A DNA stretch of 42,822 nucleotides, taken from Caldifarciminota bacterium (GTDB taxonomy: Bacteria > Hydrothermota > Hydrothermia > LBFQ01). Under the pieces are notes generated by a model that worked only from the letters and a program-made list of their open reading frames with translations, was not told the origin of the DNA and searched no databases. The position numbers and the translations under genes were made by a program. Positions 27,447 through 37,433 of this stretch are shown one piece after another. The stretch is from positions 1-42,822 of the forward strand of contig WFXS01000031.1 of NCBI GenBank assembly GCA_015490465.1, read 5' to 3'. The stretch's first letter is position 1; each line of letters starts with the position of its first letter.

Positions 27447-27449
27447 AAG

Positions 27450-27523
27450 TGGGCGCGGGAGGAGTTGAACCTCCGACCTCTCGCATGTCAAACGAGCGCT
27501 CTAACCACCTGAGCTACGCGCCC
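27450..27523 (-). tRNA. tRNA-Val (anticodon GAC)
   Basis: A 74-nt cloverleaf on the minus strand. The acceptor arm is GGGCGCG/CGCGCCC with discriminator A. The D arm is GCTC...GAGC, the anticodon stem CTCGT/GCGAG (one G-U) with loop TTGACAT and anticodon GAC, and the T arm GGAGG-TTCAACT-CCTCC. It reads GUC and GUU valine codons. CCA is not encoded. Confidence 0.97.
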
Positions 27524-27536
27524 GGATGAGGATGAT

Positions 27537-27542
27537 ATTATA
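27537..27542 (-). promoter_or_regulatory. -10 box of tRNA-Val
   Basis: A perfect TATAAT, 13 nt upstream of the tRNA 5' end, giving a short 5' leader. Confidence 0.65.
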
Positions 27543-30172: not shown

Positions 30173-30259
30173 CTAAACTTTAGCCCCTGCCATCTGATTC
30201 CCATGCCAAAAAACTCTCCAGACTTTCTCCTTCGCTCTCTCAAGAACGGCCTCCTTCAT
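30173..30259 (-). CDS. 28-codon ORF overlapping the Uma2 stop
   Basis: MKEAVLERAKEKVWRVFWHG then NQMAGAKV. The ATG overlaps the TGA of the Uma2 gene (ATGA). The preceding GGAGG lies 8 nt before it (GAGGAGGTGATAAG), a good ribosome-binding site. The C-terminal sequence and DNA are similar to degraded pieces at 14731-14769 and 8961-8986, which suggests a mobile or repeatedly acquired small gene. It may be a small partner or a remnant tail of a Uma2-linked gene. Confidence 0.45.
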   Translation of the reverse strand: MKEAVLERAKEKVWRVFWHGNQMAGAKV

Positions 30260-30810
30260 CTTATCACCTCCTCAATCTTGAGCTTGAAACCTTTAAGGAC
30301 GCACGACTCAACATCCCCCTTCTCAACAGCAACCGAGTGTAGGACATATCTACCATCCTTCAAACACCAAACCTCTATTACTTTTTCACGCGGGAGAACT
30401 ATCCAGTACTCCCTGACGCCGTGCTTCTCATAGAGCTTGAACTTCTCATACCTATCGCGATGATAACTACCCGGTGAAACTATCTCAACTACAAGGTCGG
30501 GAGGTCCGAATACGCGATCTTTCACAATATCCATCCTTTCTCTAAAAACGAAGAGGAGATCAGGCTGTACGACCACCGTATCCGATAGGATAACATCAAC
30601 AGGTGATATGAGGATATCACCCCTTCCCTTTAAGCTGACCCTAAGGATGTAGTACAGATCACCCAGGACCCTTTGATGTAAAACTGTGGGCGCGGGCATC
30701 TCGTACAACCTCCCGTTTATGACCTCATAGCGTTTGTCGTCCGTGAGGCGAAGGTAATCCTCGTAGGTCCAAATCTTCTCCTTTGGTCTCTCCTTAACCG
30801 CAACAGCCAT
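30256..30810 (-). CDS. Uma2 family (DUF820) endonuclease
   Basis: A 184-aa PD-(D/E)xK-fold protein. DKRYEVINGRLYEMPAP carries the conserved Glu/Asn/Gly block, PDLLFVFRER and PDLVVEIVSPGSYHRDRYEK hold the catalytic P-D...E-x-V motif, then KHGVREYWIVLPREKVIEVW. Uma2 proteins are putative nucleases, often in many copies per genome, with unproven targets. ATG 30810 has GGAGG 6 nt upstream. It shares about 60% of its N-terminal residues with the next gene upstream, so the pair arose by tandem duplication. Confidence 0.85.
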   Translation of the reverse strand: MAVAVKERPKEKIWTYEDYLRLTDDKRYEVINGRLYEMPAPTVLHQRVLGDLYYILRVSLKGRGDILISPVDVILSDTVVVQPDLLFVFRERMDIVKDRVFGPPDLVVEIVSPGSYHRDRYEKFKLYEKHGVREYWIVLPREKVIEVWCLKDGRYVLHSVAVEKGDVESCVLKGFKLKIEEVIR

Positions 30811-30824
30811 ATTCAACCTCCTTT

Positions 30825-30840
30825 GTCTTCATTTGAAGAC
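30825..30840 (-). repeat. Perfect palindrome between the two Uma2 genes
   Basis: GTCTTCA-TT-TGAAGAC, 7-bp perfect arms, spanning the stop codon of the upstream Uma2 gene (30829-30831). A possible RNA processing or attenuation hairpin. Confidence 0.55.
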
Positions 30841-31395
30841 CTCCTTAAGGTCTATCTCCAGTCCCTCCAACACCTTGCTCTTAACCTTACCCTCCCCTTC
30901 GGCTACGCTGAAGAGGTCGTACTTACCCTTATCGTTCAGGACCCACACCTCAATAGCCTTCTCATCGGGATAAACGATCCAGTACTCCCTAACTCCAAAC
31001 TTCTCGTATATCTCTTTCTTAACGACCGTATCTCTCCGCACTGTAGCAGGTGATATTATCTCAACGACCAGATCCGGAGGCCCCATTATGGCCTTCTCGC
31101 CTATTATCCCAAGCCTATCCTTGGAGATGAAGATTATGTCCGGCTGAAGGACGTACTTATCCCCTAAAACCACGTCTATGGGAGAGGGGAGAACCTCACC
31201 AGGATCCTTTCTTTCAACGAAGTATATCATAAACTTGGCGATCCTTATAAGTATCCTCTGATGCAAAGGTGTAGGTGCAGGCATCTCGTACAACCTCCCG
31301 TTTATGACTTCATACCGTTTGTCATCCGCAAGGCGGAGGTAGTCTTCGTAGGTCCAAACCTCCTTCTCCGGCCTCTCCTTAACTGCTACAGCCAT
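30829..31395 (-). CDS. Uma2 family (DUF820) endonuclease
   Basis: 188 aa, paralogue of the gene at 30256. It shares MAVAVKERP, TYEDYLRL, DDKRYEVINGRLYEMPAPT and the C-terminal block PDLVVEIISPATVRR then YEKFGVREYWIVYPDEKAIEVW. The putative active-site residues (D/E and K of the PD-(D/E)xK fold) are kept, so both copies look functional. ATG 31395 has a GGAGG site 6 nt upstream; the TATAAT at 31418-31423 would give a leader of about 16 nt, with SD-type rather than leaderless translation. Confidence 0.87.
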   Translation of the reverse strand: MAVAVKERPEKEVWTYEDYLRLADDKRYEVINGRLYEMPAPTPLHQRILIRIAKFMIYFVERKDPGEVLPSPIDVVLGDKYVLQPDIIFISKDRLGIIGEKAIMGPPDLVVEIISPATVRRDTVVKKEIYEKFGVREYWIVYPDEKAIEVWVLNDKGKYDLFSVAEGEGKVKSKVLEGLEIDLKEVFK

Positions 31396-31417
31396 TTTCA
31401 ACCTCCTTCAATTCAAA

Positions 31418-31451: not shown

Positions 31452-33386
31452 CTACCCCCTGCCCTTCCTCCTTATCTCCTCCAACACCTCCGGATTAACG
31501 AGAGCCGAAGTGTCTCCGAGGTCTTCGCCGAGGTAGGCCGCCCTTATGAGCCTACGCATCACCTTGGCGTTCCTCGTCTTGGGTAGGCCGCTTACGAAGA
31601 CCACGTCCTTGGGGGCGAGGGCCTTACCCATCTTCCTTACGACGTTCTCCATTATCTGGCGCTTTATCTCCTCCGAAGGCTCGTACCCCTCCTTGAGTAC
31701 GACAAATAGGACGGCCACCTGGCCCTTCACCTCGTCCGGTACGCCGACGGCGGCACTCTCAACCACGGCCGGATGCTCATTCGCGAGGGCCTCAAGCTCG
31801 GAGGGGCCGACCCTCTTGCCGGCGATCTTCAGGGTGTCGTCCGCCCTGCCAAGGATGTACCAGAAGTCGTCCTCATCTATATAAACGAGGTCCCCGTGGT
31901 ACCAGAGACCCTCCCAGCGGCTCCAGTAGGTCCGGATGTACCTCTCGTCGTCTTTCCAGAAGGACCGGGTCATTCCGGGGTTGACGTTGGCGATGGCCAG
32001 ATAGCCTATCTCCCCTTTAACCGGCTTCCCCTCCTCGTTTACGGCCAGAGCCTCCACGCCGGGTACGGGGGTGTTGAAGGAGGTCGGTTTTATAGGCCTT
32101 ACGACCACGCATCCGAGGATTCCGCCGGAGATCTCCGTCCCTCCGGAGTAGTTTATTATGGGTTTCTTGCCCTTCAGGACATTAGTGTAGGTCCAGTACC
32201 ACGACTTCGGGTCCCACGGCTCACCCGTTGATCCCACCATACGCAGATGCTCCATCGCGTACTTCTTGACCCACTCGTCCCCTTCCTTCATGAGCGCCCT
32301 TATGAGGGTGGGGGTTATGCCGAGGATGGTAATGCCGTGCCTCTCAACCATCTCCCAGAGGCGGTCGGGCCTGGGATAGGAGGGGAGACCCTCGTACATG
32401 AAGACGGTGGCGCCGCTCACCAGTCCGCCCCCTATCAGCCACGGCCCCATCATCCAGCCTATGTCCGTCACCCACGTTATGACATCATTGGGCTTTATGT
32501 CAAAGAGGTGATACATGTCCTGGGCGCCCTTTATCATGAAACCGCCGTGGACGTGCCTGGCCCCCTTGGGTTTCCCGGTCGTTCCGGAGGTGTATATGAC
32601 CATAAAGAGGTGATCGGGGTCGTAGGCCTTCACCTCAAGGTCGCTGGACTCACACCTGACGAACTCCTCGTAGTCCAGCTCGTTGCACATCAGGGAGGTG
32701 TTTTTGTCCCGGCGTACGACTATTACCCTGTCAAGGGAGGGGATGTCCTTGTAGGTCTGGCGGAGGGTGTTGAGCATGGGGATGCGGTTGCCCTTGCGCC
32801 AGGCGTAATCCGTCGTTATAACGACTTTGGCGTTGGCGTCCGAGAGCCTAACCCTTATAGGCTCCGGACCGAAACCGGAGAAGAGGGGTACCACCACCGC
32901 CCCGATACGGGATATGGCCAGGAGGGATATGGCGGTCTCCGGTACGAAGGGCAGGTATATGCCGACGGCGTCCCCCTCCTTTACGCCGAGTTGCTTGAGG
33001 GCATTAGCGAGGCGGTTCACCTCCGCCTTCAGCTGGCCGTAGGTGTAGGTACGCACCTCTCCGTTCTCCCCCTCCCATATCAGGGCGCGCTTACTCTGGG
33101 GGTGGCGGTCAAGGGCGTTGTAGGTCCAGTTGAGTTTGCCCCCCACCCACCACTTCGCCCAGGGCTTGCCGCGGGAGAGGTCTACGGTCTGATTGTAAGG
33201 CTCGTGCCAGTAGAAGCCGGTGTCCTCAAAGTAGGCCCGCCAGAACCAATCGTAGTCGCTGAAGGAGCGTTTCAGGAACTCCTCGTAGGAGTCTATGCCG
33301 TACTTCTTCATCTGGTGGTAGATGTTGGAGTTCTCAATCCACTCGTTTGTGGGCTTCCATTCAACGGGGAAACTCAGCACCTTCAT
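31452..33386 (-). CDS. AMP-forming acyl-CoA synthetase (acetyl/acetoacetyl-CoA synthetase-like)
   Basis: 644 aa. The ANL superfamily P-loop YTSGTTGKPKG is near residue 270, then WVTDIGWMMGPW, GSTGEPWDPKSW, YSGGTEISGG, and the A8 hinge region GRADDTLKIAGKRVGPSELE. The catalytic lysine of KTRNAKVMRR is near the C-terminus. The N-terminal segment W-W-VGGKLNWTYNALDRH is characteristic of ACS/acetoacetyl-CoA ligase relatives. It activates a carboxylate to acyl-AMP and then the CoA thioester. ATG 33386 is chosen on the TAAAAT box 7 nt upstream; a 51-residue longer frame is not supported. The exact acyl group (acetate, propionate or acetoacetate) is undecided. Confidence 0.88.
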   Translation of the reverse strand: MKVLSFPVEWKPTNEWIENSNIYHQMKKYGIDSYEEFLKRSFSDYDWFWRAYFEDTGFYWHEPYNQTVDLSRGKPWAKWWVGGKLNWTYNALDRHPQSKRALIWEGENGEVRTYTYGQLKAEVNRLANALKQLGVKEGDAVGIYLPFVPETAISLLAISRIGAVVVPLFSGFGPEPIRVRLSDANAKVVITTDYAWRKGNRIPMLNTLRQTYKDIPSLDRVIVVRRDKNTSLMCNELDYEEFVRCESSDLEVKAYDPDHLFMVIYTSGTTGKPKGARHVHGGFMIKGAQDMYHLFDIKPNDVITWVTDIGWMMGPWLIGGGLVSGATVFMYEGLPSYPRPDRLWEMVERHGITILGITPTLIRALMKEGDEWVKKYAMEHLRMVGSTGEPWDPKSWYWTYTNVLKGKKPIINYSGGTEISGGILGCVVVRPIKPTSFNTPVPGVEALAVNEEGKPVKGEIGYLAIANVNPGMTRSFWKDDERYIRTYWSRWEGLWYHGDLVYIDEDDFWYILGRADDTLKIAGKRVGPSELEALANEHPAVVESAAVGVPDEVKGQVAVLFVVLKEGYEPSEEIKRQIMENVVRKMGKALAPKDVVFVSGLPKTRNAKVMRRLIRAAYLGEDLGDTSALVNPEVLEEIRRKGRG

Positions 33387-33501: not shown

Positions 33502-33535
33502 TTACACTTATGCGAAATTTGACCACATAGTGTAA
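33502..33535 (+). promoter_or_regulatory. Inverted repeat upstream of the zinc-ribbon gene (candidate operator)
   Basis: TTACACT (33502-33508) and AGTGTAA (33529-33535) are perfect complements; with one bulge the match extends to TTACACTTATG/CATAGTGTAA. It ends 14 bp before the TAAAAT box, where an activator or repressor would bind. Confidence 0.5.
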
Positions 33536-33549
33536 GCATATGAACGGTG

Positions 33550-33555
33550 TAAAAT
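33550..33555 (+). promoter_or_regulatory. -10 box of the zinc-ribbon/HTH gene
   Basis: TAAAAT, 8 nt before ATG 33564. It supports this start over ATG 33540. Confidence 0.55.
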
Positions 33556-33563
33556 TTCAGGTT

Positions 33564-34439
33564 ATGTATAGCATTAGGACGATCTTAAGGTGCAAAGTGT
33601 GCGGTAGCTACGACATCATCAAGCACGCTGGCATACCCCTGCGCTTCAAGTGCAGGACCTGTGGTAACACCTTCTCCTTCAACGTCCAGCACCCACTCTA
33701 CAAGAAGCACGGGAAGAGGTTGAGCGACAGGGAGAAGGCCAGCATAGCGGCCGACTACAGGGTAGGTATACCCGTTTCCCATATCATGAAGGATCACTCC
33801 GTCTCCTACGGGACCGTGATGAGGGCGGTAAGGTACTTTGAGAGGGGGAGAAGGATCTACCTGTGGAATATCATGTACATGCCCCGGACGAGACCCAGAG
33901 ATTGGGAAGTGGTTGACATGGACATTATATTGCCGGAGATTGAGGCGGGTAGGTTGAGACAGGGGTGGGGAATAGAAGATCTGCGCGAGGGACCGGATGC
34001 GTTCTACAGGGCGGTGGCGCGGATGTATCCGGAGGAGATAGATCCAGAATATCCCCGTCAACGAAGCAGTATAATTAAGAGCAGATACGATGCCTTAAAA
34101 CTTATGCTCCTTATGAAGCCGGGGGATTATGTAATAGTGCCGAGGTTAGGTAGGTGGAGGGAGAGATTTCTCGTTATAGCCGAGGTATCGGGAGGATACG
34201 AGTTTGACGGCCCGTACTTCTTTGGCCATCACGTCAGGATAGGTCGCACGAAGGTATTCGCTCTGGAGAGTCGGACAAATGACCCCGAGGAGATAGCCGA
34301 AGGCTACGACCACGACTTCCAGGTTCTCTGGCATTTCCTCAGATCGTGGAGGCTCTACAGACCGTTAGAGAGAGGGGCTTCGGTCGTGGACAGGCGAAAC
34401 CGGGAGTTGTACAGGGTGGTCAACCGGATAATGGGGTAG
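33564..34439 (+). CDS. Zinc-ribbon, HTH and PUA/EVE-like domain protein
   Basis: 291 aa. Residues 8-36: a zinc ribbon with C10-x2-C13 and C30-x2-C33 (RCKVCGSYD...FKCRTCGNTF). Residues about 53-90: a helix-turn-helix (LSDREKASIAADYRVGIPVS, SYGTVMRAVRYFERG). This resembles the N-terminal module of some transposases but no catalytic domain follows. Residues 125-235: LRQGWGIEDLREGP, then MKPGDYVIVPRLGRWRER and VIAEVSGGYEFDGPYFFGHH resemble the PUA/EVE-like readers seen in modification-dependent restriction and related proteins. So it may bind DNA, possibly modified. The function is not known. Start as argued for the promoter. Confidence 0.7.
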   Translation: MYSIRTILRCKVCGSYDIIKHAGIPLRFKCRTCGNTFSFNVQHPLYKKHGKRLSDREKASIAADYRVGIPVSHIMKDHSVSYGTVMRAVRYFERGRRIYLWNIMYMPRTRPRDWEVVDMDIILPEIEAGRLRQGWGIEDLREGPDAFYRAVARMYPEEIDPEYPRQRSSIIKSRYDALKLMLLMKPGDYVIVPRLGRWRERFLVIAEVSGGYEFDGPYFFGHHVRIGRTKVFALESRTNDPEEIAEGYDHDFQVLWHFLRSWRLYRPLERGASVVDRRNRELYRVVNRIMG

Positions 34440-34448
34440 TTTCGTCCT

Positions 34449-34454
34449 TAAAAT
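34449..34454 (+). promoter_or_regulatory. -10 box of the HTH/repeat protein gene
   Basis: TAAAAT, 6 nt before GTG 34461. It starts 10 nt after the previous stop, so the gene may also be transcribed from the upstream unit. Confidence 0.5.
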
Positions 34455-34460
34455 GGGCAA

Positions 34461-35852
34461 GTGGATATTCGCAGGAGGGTTATAGATCGCTTTCGGGTAA
34501 TCGTCCTGCACCATAAAGGGCTTGACGTAAAGGAAATTTCGGAGAGAACGGGAATACATCCGAGAACGGTCAGGAGGATCCTCGACACCGGAAAGGTGTT
34601 CCCGGCGGCGTACGAGAAGGTAATACGGGATATTGAAAAGTTCCCCTTTGCGAGCGTGGAGGAGAGGGCCTCAAGGTTAGGGATAAGTAAAGGGTACGTA
34701 TCGCGGATGTACGGCCTCGTGTTCTTTTCGGACAGATCGGAAGGGGAAGAGTGGATGGCCGAATACCTCGTAAGGGTCGGGTTGTACGATCTATCAGCCG
34801 GACTCCTGAGGATCCTCCCGTTTTCGTACAGAACCTACAGCCTCATAAGTTCGCTCCCGGAGGAGTACCTGACGCCCCACCTCAGGATCCTCAAACTCTA
34901 CGGGGACGTAAGGTTCAATCCGTCGGGATACGGGCGGGACTACTACGATAGAGCCTTCAGAAGCCTCATGGAAAGGCTGAGAAGGGACGGATATCACCTG
35001 TCGTATTACCACGCCCTCTACACGTACATGAACGTCCTCATGCTCCAGAGTCGCTGGAGAGATGCCTACGACCTCGCCTTAAGCGTTGAGAGGGATCCCA
35101 TCCTCCTGCCTCCCCCCCTTTCCCTGAACCTCTACGCCCTGATAGGCAAACTGGCCATCACTCTGGGTTATTCAGAGAAATTCAGGGAGCTACTCTCCAG
35201 GCTCAGGCACAAATTGAGGAAGAAGAAGACCTTCGTTCACCTCAGAAAGAAGGTCACCCTTGACCTCATCATAGCGGACGGTAAGTACTCCCAGGCAGCG
35301 CGGTATTCGTTAAGGGACGTTCACGAACCTGATGCCACACTTTTCCGGTGTATATTGCTCTTACAGACGGGGAGATTCAGGGAGGTTATACGGGAGGACG
35401 TTTCCCACGTTGAAGTTCCACTGTACCGTTTTTACACGTCCGTGTTGAAAGGGTACGCCCGGCTGGTCCTCGGATACGTTTCAAACGCCCTTAACGACGT
35501 GGGAAAGTCCTACAGGAAGGTTGAGGGTTTCGGGGCGGCTGAGAGTCTTTACTGCCAGTTCATGGCTTTCTACGAGGCCAGAACGGACAGGTACGAGAGA
35601 TCCGAAGGGTACCTGCGGAGGATAGTTGAGATAAGCGGCGGGTACGGTGTCATGGGCAGGGTATCCAGAGCGCTCATAAACCGTAATACGTCTTTCCTGT
35701 CGGATTTCAGCAGGGAGAACCTCTTGAGGCTCGTGATGGACGGCCGGACGGAAAACGCCCTTGACATGGCGAGGAGGTACGGGATGCTCTTTGACCTGAT
35801 CTATCTCTCAACCCTTGCGGGAAAGCCTTTACGGGTAAACTTCGCCCGCTAA
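34461..35852 (+). CDS. Two-HTH protein with C-terminal helical repeats (regulator-like)
   Basis: 463 aa. Two DNA-binding helix-turn-helix segments: GLDVKEISERTGIHPRTVRR (about 20-39) and SVEERASRLGISKGYVSRMY (about 66-85). The rest (about 95-460) is all-helical, about ten TPR/SEL-like helix pairs (for example YHALYTYMNVLMLQSRWRDA, ARLVLGYVSNALNDVGKSYR), as in RRNPP- or MalT-type regulators where the repeats bind peptides or ligands. No signal peptide, membrane segment or enzyme motif is seen. GTG start by promoter spacing. It sits directly after the zinc-ribbon gene, which suggests a shared system. Confidence 0.65.
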   Translation: MDIRRRVIDRFRVIVLHHKGLDVKEISERTGIHPRTVRRILDTGKVFPAAYEKVIRDIEKFPFASVEERASRLGISKGYVSRMYGLVFFSDRSEGEEWMAEYLVRVGLYDLSAGLLRILPFSYRTYSLISSLPEEYLTPHLRILKLYGDVRFNPSGYGRDYYDRAFRSLMERLRRDGYHLSYYHALYTYMNVLMLQSRWRDAYDLALSVERDPILLPPPLSLNLYALIGKLAITLGYSEKFRELLSRLRHKLRKKKTFVHLRKKVTLDLIIADGKYSQAARYSLRDVHEPDATLFRCILLLQTGRFREVIREDVSHVEVPLYRFYTSVLKGYARLVLGYVSNALNDVGKSYRKVEGFGAAESLYCQFMAFYEARTDRYERSEGYLRRIVEISGGYGVMGRVSRALINRNTSFLSDFSRENLLRLVMDGRTENALDMARRYGMLFDLIYLSTLAGKPLRVNFAR

Positions 35853-35937
35853 ATCTGAACTTCACGCGCTCCGGACGAGTGAAAAAGGGATTATTTTCCC
35901 ACTTTCAGGCGAATAGATTCCGCGTCCATCCGGGTGA

Positions 35938-35957
35938 TAAAATCCGGTCGCAGGAGG
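35938..35957 (+). promoter_or_regulatory. Promoter and Shine-Dalgarno site of the 35964 gene
   Basis: TAAAAT at 35938-35943, then AGGAGG at 35952-35957, 6 nt before ATG 35964. A short-leader, SD-led gene, unlike most lead genes here. Confidence 0.55.
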
Positions 35958-35963
35958 TAAAGT

Positions 35964-37433
35964 ATGATAGTGCTTCTAACCGCAACAGCAACCAGCCCTG
36001 TGGTAGGTGCAATCGCCCCCGACGAAAAGGGGGTGAGGGTAGTACTACCCGGCTCAACCGATGAGGAGTACCTGAGGGACATCGTCCGCGCAAGAGGAGG
36101 CGAAAGGGACCGGGCCCCCTTTACACCCCTATGGGGAACGGACGTCCTCGTGAGCGATGAGACTCAGGGGTACCCCATAGCCCTCGCCATGGACGTGGCG
36201 GACGACGGAGACATATTCGTGGCCATCGTACGTGAGGTCAGCGGGGCCGAGGACGTAATTCAAATAATGCGTTCAAGCGACGGCCACACCTGGTCCCAGT
36301 GGAGGAGGTTTGAGACGAGGGAGGTCGGAACGAGGGGCGTGGACATAGCCGTGGGACCTGGGGCAGATCCGTGGGTCTATCTCCTCGTAGACGTTCAGGG
36401 GTCGTCGGGTGAGGATCTCTCCCTCTTCCGGGTAAGGGCGAGCGGATCGTCCCCCTCGTGGATACCCGTGGTCTCAGGTTCAACGGATACGGTCCTTCTC
36501 CCTTCAATCTCCGTCAACAACGACGGCGTTCTTGCTCTGTCCTACGTGAGTACCAGCGGGGAGGTGTACAGAGGTCTATCCACAGACGAAGGCTCAACGT
36601 GGGACGTCCTCGCCGCCAACTCGGGTGTTTCGTACGCGAGCATATTCATGTCAGAGAACGGTAGGGGGTACCACGCCTACGTTCAGAACGATACGCTGAT
36701 ATGGATCGTAACGTTTGATTCTCCAGACCTCTTCGCGACCTACGTCAGAAGCATCAGGATCGGCGGGGATACGGCTTACAGTGTAAGCGTGACGGCCTCG
36801 GACGGGACCCCCTCGGCCCAGAAGGTGGTCGTCGTTTACAGTAACAGGCATAGCAGCGGAAACTACACGGATGTACACTGGACCTACTCAACGGACGGAG
36901 GAGAGAACTTCCAGCCCGACGATGTATTTCCACCCGATTTTGGGCCCTCTTATCCCTCCGGAAGTGAAGCCCTGTACCCCTACGTACACCGGGACAGGAA
37001 CGCCATATCTTTCCGTTTCGTATTCACGTACTACGACGGTGGGGCGTGGGACACGGTCTTTTACTCCTACTCGTCCAGCGGAACGTCGGGGTGGGGCAAC
37101 TACCTCCCCATTAACGAGTACAGGGGAACGGGTGCGTTCGGGCCCCGCGCGGATCAGTGCCAGCCCACCGGAGGAGGGTGCGTTGTGTACAGGGGATACG
37201 CTTCGGATAGCGTATGGTTTGACGGGTACACGTTTACGGCGGTAGAGGAGACCTACAACGGCAACCTTCCCTTGATCAGCGTGGTAAACGGAGGGATAAA
37301 GACCACGGGTAAGGTCCTCGTGTACTCCACAGACGGCAGGCTAATCGCATCCGGAAGCGGGTACATAGAGTTGAGATCGGGCCTGTACTTCGTGAGATCC
37401 GGTAAAACGACCCTGAAGGTGATCGTCCGCTGA
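35964..37433 (+). CDS. Secreted BNR/sialidase-like repeat protein with Por-type tail
   Basis: 489 aa. A short hydrophobic N-terminus (MIVLLTATATSPVVGA), then beta-propeller-type repeats: three Asp-box-like blocks S-x-D-G-x-T-W: SSDGHTWSQW near residue 109, STDEGSTWDVL near 206 and STDGGENFQPD near 308. Such BNR repeats occur in sialidases and other surface proteins; catalytic arginines of GH33 sialidases are not evident. The C-terminal segment (KVLVYSTDGRLIASGSGYIE then LRSGLYFVRSGKTTLKVIVR) is a Por-type sorting domain. Probably surface-bound. A strong terminator follows. Confidence 0.75.
   Translation: MIVLLTATATSPVVGAIAPDEKGVRVVLPGSTDEEYLRDIVRARGGERDRAPFTPLWGTDVLVSDETQGYPIALAMDVADDGDIFVAIVREVSGAEDVIQIMRSSDGHTWSQWRRFETREVGTRGVDIAVGPGADPWVYLLVDVQGSSGEDLSLFRVRASGSSPSWIPVVSGSTDTVLLPSISVNNDGVLALSYVSTSGEVYRGLSTDEGSTWDVLAANSGVSYASIFMSENGRGYHAYVQNDTLIWIVTFDSPDLFATYVRSIRIGGDTAYSVSVTASDGTPSAQKVVVVYSNRHSSGNYTDVHWTYSTDGGENFQPDDVFPPDFGPSYPSGSEALYPYVHRDRNAISFRFVFTYYDGGAWDTVFYSYSSSGTSGWGNYLPINEYRGTGAFGPRADQCQPTGGGCVVYRGYASDSVWFDGYTFTAVEETYNGNLPLISVVNGGIKTTGKVLVYSTDGRLIASGSGYIELRSGLYFVRSGKTTLKVIVR

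Follow-up and report, generated by a model that had tools for sequence, protein, structure and literature searches.

The window, the whole stretch of 42,822 nucleotides analysed here, corresponds to contig C31 in an assembly of 2.05 Mb (G000, the window genome), and the nearest named relatives of this genome are MAGs of candidate division WOR-3. Two genes of the forward strand, P1 (33564..34439) and P2 (34461..35852), lie 21 nt apart; an earlier note, made from the sequence alone, had described them as adjacent on one strand, and the open reading frame coordinates agree. P1 is oriented divergently from acs (31452..33386, reverse strand), which is acyl-CoA/acetate-CoA ligase-like by its own sequence rather than by a family search, and P2 is followed by its conserved neighbour, a gene for a secreted BNR-like propeller (35964..37433, forward strand). 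P2 (463 aa) consists of two HTH segments (residues 3-43 and 51-87) and a TPR-like helical solenoid. Its AlphaFold model (pLDDT 88.6) places about 20 helices, MalT-domain-III/TPR-like, beyond the HTH segments, and so confirms the two HTH and helical repeats of the earlier description.

P1 encodes 291 aa from position 33564 or 299 aa from an alternative start at 33540; the former is likelier, because homologues begin at its equivalent. The protein comprises a CxxC...CxxC zinc ribbon (33591..33662; Cys10, Cys13, Cys30 and Cys33 in the homologue alignment), an HTH (33726..33842; residues 55-93, PF13384 E 1e-4 and AlphaFold model) and a domain that we call the reader (33849..34268; residues 96-235), whose homologue is the N-terminal domain of the COG4127/PDC-S02 restriction endonucleases. 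The zinc ribbon/HTH region gave weak matches in Pfam and a match below cut-off to the IS1/IS1595 zinc domain of NCBIfam, and other transposase N-termini were also weakly matched. Neither a catalytic domain (Pfam, NCBIfam, PADLOC or PHROGs) nor a WYL domain (Pfam, NCBIfam or PADLOC) was found in P1, in line with the note's picture of a transposase-like zinc ribbon and HTH lacking catalytic parts. The Mrr_cat nuclease (PF04471) is absent from P1 and its homologues, and P1 is thus not a restriction enzyme. None of the viral contigs searched contained a P1 relative.

The P1 family profile was searched against 147 genomes of the phylum. Full-length members are confined to one order, and elsewhere we saw weaker matches to the zinc ribbon only. 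A single match covered the C-terminal half (positions 78-212, E 3.8e-7); it was to the N-terminal part of an Mrr_cat protein, found in another genome of the phylum, that corresponds to PADLOC PDC-S02 (E 2e-147). Plasmid relatives of the PDC-S02 N-domain sit in annotated restriction endonucleases or AAA ATPases. When the P1 reader was aligned with the COG4127 N-domain by hhalign, the score was 97.1% (E 5.2e-11, 105 columns), as against 2.6% for an unrelated control alignment, and the aligned columns include the KxGDxVxVP...GYxFxxxxxxGHxVxV core. COG4127 has been described as having an N-domain of unknown function, which sometimes occurs alone, and as tied to type I/III R-M loci (PMC1189080), and it serves as an McrB 'alias' in a census of McrBC systems (PMC11090510). 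By these alignments, P1 shares its reader half with type IV-like restriction proteins, in which the related half provides specificity. P1 has a zinc ribbon and HTH instead of a nuclease, and carries at its C-terminus the reader that COG4127 has at its N-terminus.

The earlier note had likened this half of P1 to EVE/PUA-type readers of modified bases. The reader-like character stands, through the homology to the COG4127 N-domain, but an assignment to the PUA/EVE fold proper is tentative. An EVE alignment compared profile against profile scored 41.6% with the COG4127 N-domain and 7.1% with P1, and there was no Pfam match to EVE or PUA in P1. The AlphaFold model of P1, made with 11 homologues, is of medium confidence (pLDDT 79) with a C-terminal half of helices and strands; in its Foldseek top 50, PUA-like structures appeared at E 0.17-1.5, none below 0.001 (VcaM4I, E 0.17; YTHDF2, 0.32; EVE Q88CH6, 0.58; Mmi1 YTH, 1.3). 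The EVE/YTH/SRA readers of the PUA superfamily, such as VcaM4I (PMC7897488), and EVE/ASCH fusions including HTH-ASCH (PMC7641849), resemble P1 in this weak structural similarity and in the role of specificity modules of restriction systems; P1 differs in having no significant EVE profile match, and its putative pocket residues are not assignable.

Comparison of P1 alleles of close relatives revealed two constant parts, the DNA-binding half and a C-terminal stretch of 16 codons (34389..34436; residues 276-291), with divergent reader modules between them. The hypervariable, apparently exchangeable module extends over residues 96-275 (33849..34388), and its upstream break, at residue 95/96, falls where the HTH finishes (the helix ends at residue 93 in the AlphaFold model). 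Against G005, P1 identity is 90-98% over residues 1-95 (60-nt bins), 57% at residue 96, 38% at residue 156 and again 85% at residue 276; against G004 it returns to 93% at residue 276. G004 is an overall relative at 92-97%, with flanks mostly 90-100% identical to the window, and dS is 0.72 for P1 and 0.08 for P2, values and profile alike being limited in precision by short bins and saturated dS. This pattern makes it appear that the reader cassette has been exchanged between constant arms across strains. The gene acs is a conserved neighbour of P1 in both G004 and G005. As a separate observation, a block of G005 made up of acs and the beginning of P1 (L028, 1-1250) is far closer to the window than is the rest of that genome: acs is 88-100% identical (about 97%), and the rest 72-78% (about 75%). 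Mis-binning of contig G005:C106 is disfavoured, since its other genes match the window genome at the usual 73-82% and the contig looks native; the acs/P1 block looks like a recent transfer, or possibly an assembly join.

Promoters of diverged P1 genes, when compared, share the signal CCACANAGTG-N17-TAWAAT about 41 nt upstream of the start codon. In the window it is formed by the box CCACATAGTG (33523..33532, forward strand), which has a CAC-N3-GTG core and lies at the -35 position, 41 nt before the P1 start codon, and by a -10-like hexamer, TAAAAT (33550..33555, forward strand), 17 nt after the box and 8 nt before the start codon; in the comparison of diverged P1 promoters, the TAAAAT hexamer stands about 14 nt before the start codon. 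This spacing points to a promoter of the leaderless type, and a sigma-70 promoter scan returned none for P1. The box is absent before P1 of G000:C20, G008 and G010, and the P1 promoters of G001 and G003 have weak versions only. The same box is found before P1 paralogues whose recognition helices are clearly different, and its user could therefore be some other common regulator or an alternative sigma factor. The CACNNNGTG core is the recognition sequence of DraIII (PMC3996161); we rejected it as an avoided R-M target, as 210 occurrences were found in the genome and 236 expected. The right arm of a TTACACT/AGTGTAA dyad (33502..33535; arms 33502-33508 and 33529-33535, 20-nt spacer) overlaps the box. 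This dyad, to which the earlier note had drawn attention, is present, but when the P1 intergenic region was shuffled, 20% of the shuffles contained a perfect inverted repeat of 7 bp, as did 203 of 853 tiles of the window, and one arm is altered in the G005 orthologue; as an operator it was rejected, such repeats being at chance level.

We scanned the 12 genomes of the order for exact CCACANAGTGT-N16-TANNAT. Seven sites were found: before P1 in three cases (G000, G004 and G004:C60), before two orthologous cas3 genes (G000:C6 and G005:C81), before a GmrSD gene identified by GmrSD_N (G004:C31), and before a gene for a small zinc protein that is divergent from a TaqI-like methylase (G000:C20). The genes downstream of the boxed cas promoter encode Cas3b, Cas8b and Cas7 of type I-B. 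The reversed motif gave one match in the same 12 genomes, in G009, which belongs to another family. Across 1.31 Mb of the window's own genome, box and hexamer occurred together at four sites, one of them, in L199, probably by chance, whereas 60 permuted motifs averaged 0.05 sites. With a start codon also demanded, there were 10 sites, and 299 permutations averaged 0.023 and never exceeded 1, in a set partly ascertained, as it includes loci chosen for P1 or for the box. The 12-genome and 1.31-Mb scans are the less biased tests, with a motif that was itself derived from P1 promoters. When one mismatch was allowed in the box, the 10 sites found were not above permuted controls (0-13), and we therefore used exact sites alone. 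Exact boxes are few across the genomes scanned, and there were no exact boxed promoters in three P1-less genomes of the order (one 57% complete). Boxes also precede a gene for a 216-aa protein and the DUF805 genes of G006:C36 and G004:C60; the DUF805 gene of G004:C60 is directly followed by one for an AAA_5/McrB-like ATPase. P1 and DUF805 of G002 have a common box variant, GCCTCCAAGTGATACCG, in surroundings that differ; here the putative operators vary together.

P1 paralogues adjoin R-M genes in three loci. TaqI-like methylase and restriction genes precede the paralogue in G000:C20 and G002:C10; in G002 there is another R-M pair after it, and in G004:C60 a methyltransferase gene is divergent from it. 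Two of the three TaqI-like restriction genes of the order have P1 within 1.5 kb; the system of G006 has no adjacent P1. No R-M gene lies next to P1 in the window, G001, G003, G006, G008 or G010.

In G000:C20 (L035, 11606-14737), the TaqI-like methylase and restriction enzyme genes are found together with the P1 paralogue and, on the opposite strand, the boxed small zinc-protein gene. G004:C60 (L041, 1-10590) is an accessory defence island of a P1 paralogue, a DNA methylase, a PIN-like gene, an MNT/HepT pair, the boxed DUF805 gene and the AAA_5/McrB-like ATPase with its 168-aa partner, which recurs near P1 in G008 (L039, 3818-4318). Most of the island has no counterpart in that part of G000 which was scanned.

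Three options had been offered for the locus: a regulatory pair, a restriction- or defence-related sensor, and domesticated transposon parts. The sensor is the best of them. We give an even chance to the interpretation that P1 is a sensor-type one-component transcription regulator of a small anti-virus defence regulon. The starting points are what the sequences themselves display, namely the architecture, the reader homology, the shared box with its spacing and the modular divergence. The zinc ribbon/HTH half would bind DNA in promoters, its likeliest site being the CCACANAGTG box at the -35 position, and the targets would be P1's own promoter, the type I-B cas operon, the GmrSD-type nuclease, the DUF805 genes and the gene beside the TaqI-like R-M system. 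The reader half would be the sensor; a modified base, or DNA without the host's own mark, is what it most likely senses, and sensing would change expression of the boxed genes. Strains would exchange the sensor half as a module and keep the DNA-binding half. Since the box is at -35 of apparently leaderless promoters, P1 could either repress by occlusion or activate; we lean towards a repressor with autoregulation. A more specific version, which we put forward tentatively, is that P1 reads the modification state of DNA and switches CRISPR-Cas I-B, GmrSD and R-M-linked genes on foreign or wrongly marked DNA, strains adjusting the sensed signal through replacement of the reader cassette alone, the arms on either side remaining constant.

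Somewhat more doubtful, though still to be reckoned with, is the explanation that the box is the target of another regulator or of an alternative sigma factor, and that P1 is merely one of the controlled defence effectors, for example a nuclease-less binder of modified DNA that blocks replication or transcription of the invader. Several diverged P1 paralogues, cas3 and GmrSD having the same box at the same distance would fit this, as would the effector proteins of restriction systems among the relatives of the reader; against it, the layout of P1, with its own HTH and zinc ribbon, is classical for regulators, the P1-less genomes have no exact boxed promoters, incomplete as one of them is, and the box variant of G002 is common to P1 and DUF805. 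That P1 is instead an accessory (specificity or control) subunit of neighbouring R-M systems, and not a general regulator, seems unlikely. The TaqI-like pairs before its paralogues in G000:C20 and G002:C10, the second system in G002 and the divergent methyltransferase in G004:C60 favour such a role, but the P1 of the window and the P1 genes of five other genomes stand apart from R-M genes, and the TaqI-like system of G006 does without an adjacent P1.

That P1 and P2 form a regulatory operon, along the lines of the regulatory pair considered in the earlier note, is very improbable. The 21-nt spacing on one strand suggests it, in the window and in G004, but these are the only genomes with P1 and P2 adjacent: in G005, P1 remains beside acs and P2 is on a different contig, and the two are also apart in G001 and G006. 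Their divergence between the window and G004 is likewise unequal. P2 relatives, moreover, adjoin the secreted 'PLWGTDV' propeller in every lineage seen (the window, G005, G001 and G006). The neighbourhoods thus largely refute a functional pair, although the genes could share a transcript in the window strain. Least probable is that P1 is a decaying, domesticated transposase fragment with no regulatory role; its zinc ribbon/HTH weakly matches IS1/IS1595 and other transposase N-termini, but the transposase catalytic domain is absent from all 11 P1 homologues, the reading frames are intact and under purifying selection (pN well below pS), and the promoter box is conserved. P2 and the propeller (34461-37433 in the window; L029, L031 and L033) form a conserved pair in four lineages, in which P2 is probably a local regulator and the propeller the surface protein that belongs to it.

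Regulators of comparable layout are known. The C proteins of R-M systems are small HTH regulators of about 80 aa, lacking a sensor domain, with boxes in their own promoters. P1, as the regulator we prefer to see in it, shares with them the HTH, the own-promoter box and a place beside some R-M genes, but it is 291 aa long, has a sensor domain and is not tied to R-M genes. Others are BrxR and CapW, wHTH-WYL regulators of defence systems (PMC9122601, PMC9122588), which also combine an HTH with a sensor domain, lie in or near defence loci and have a conserved element in their own and in defence gene promoters, as the P1 box is found at cas3 and GmrSD. The P1 sensor, in contrast, is a restriction-type reader and not WYL, the DNA-binding part includes a zinc ribbon, and the box is short and at -35, whereas theirs are long inverted repeats. 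Our reading of P1 bears on the question of how bacteria restrain several defence systems and when they turn them on; for few of the known WYL-type regulators is the ligand known. If the reading is true, a restriction-type sensor would translate the arrival of foreign DNA straight into altered transcription of CRISPR and other systems.

Two further features of the window were noted. Two tandem Uma2-like genes of about 190 aa each (30256-31401) belong to a group with numerous scattered copies in every genome compared, and a short intergenic sequence (about 27447-27542) is a dispersed repeat, of which each of the five relatives has many copies at 72-98% identity.
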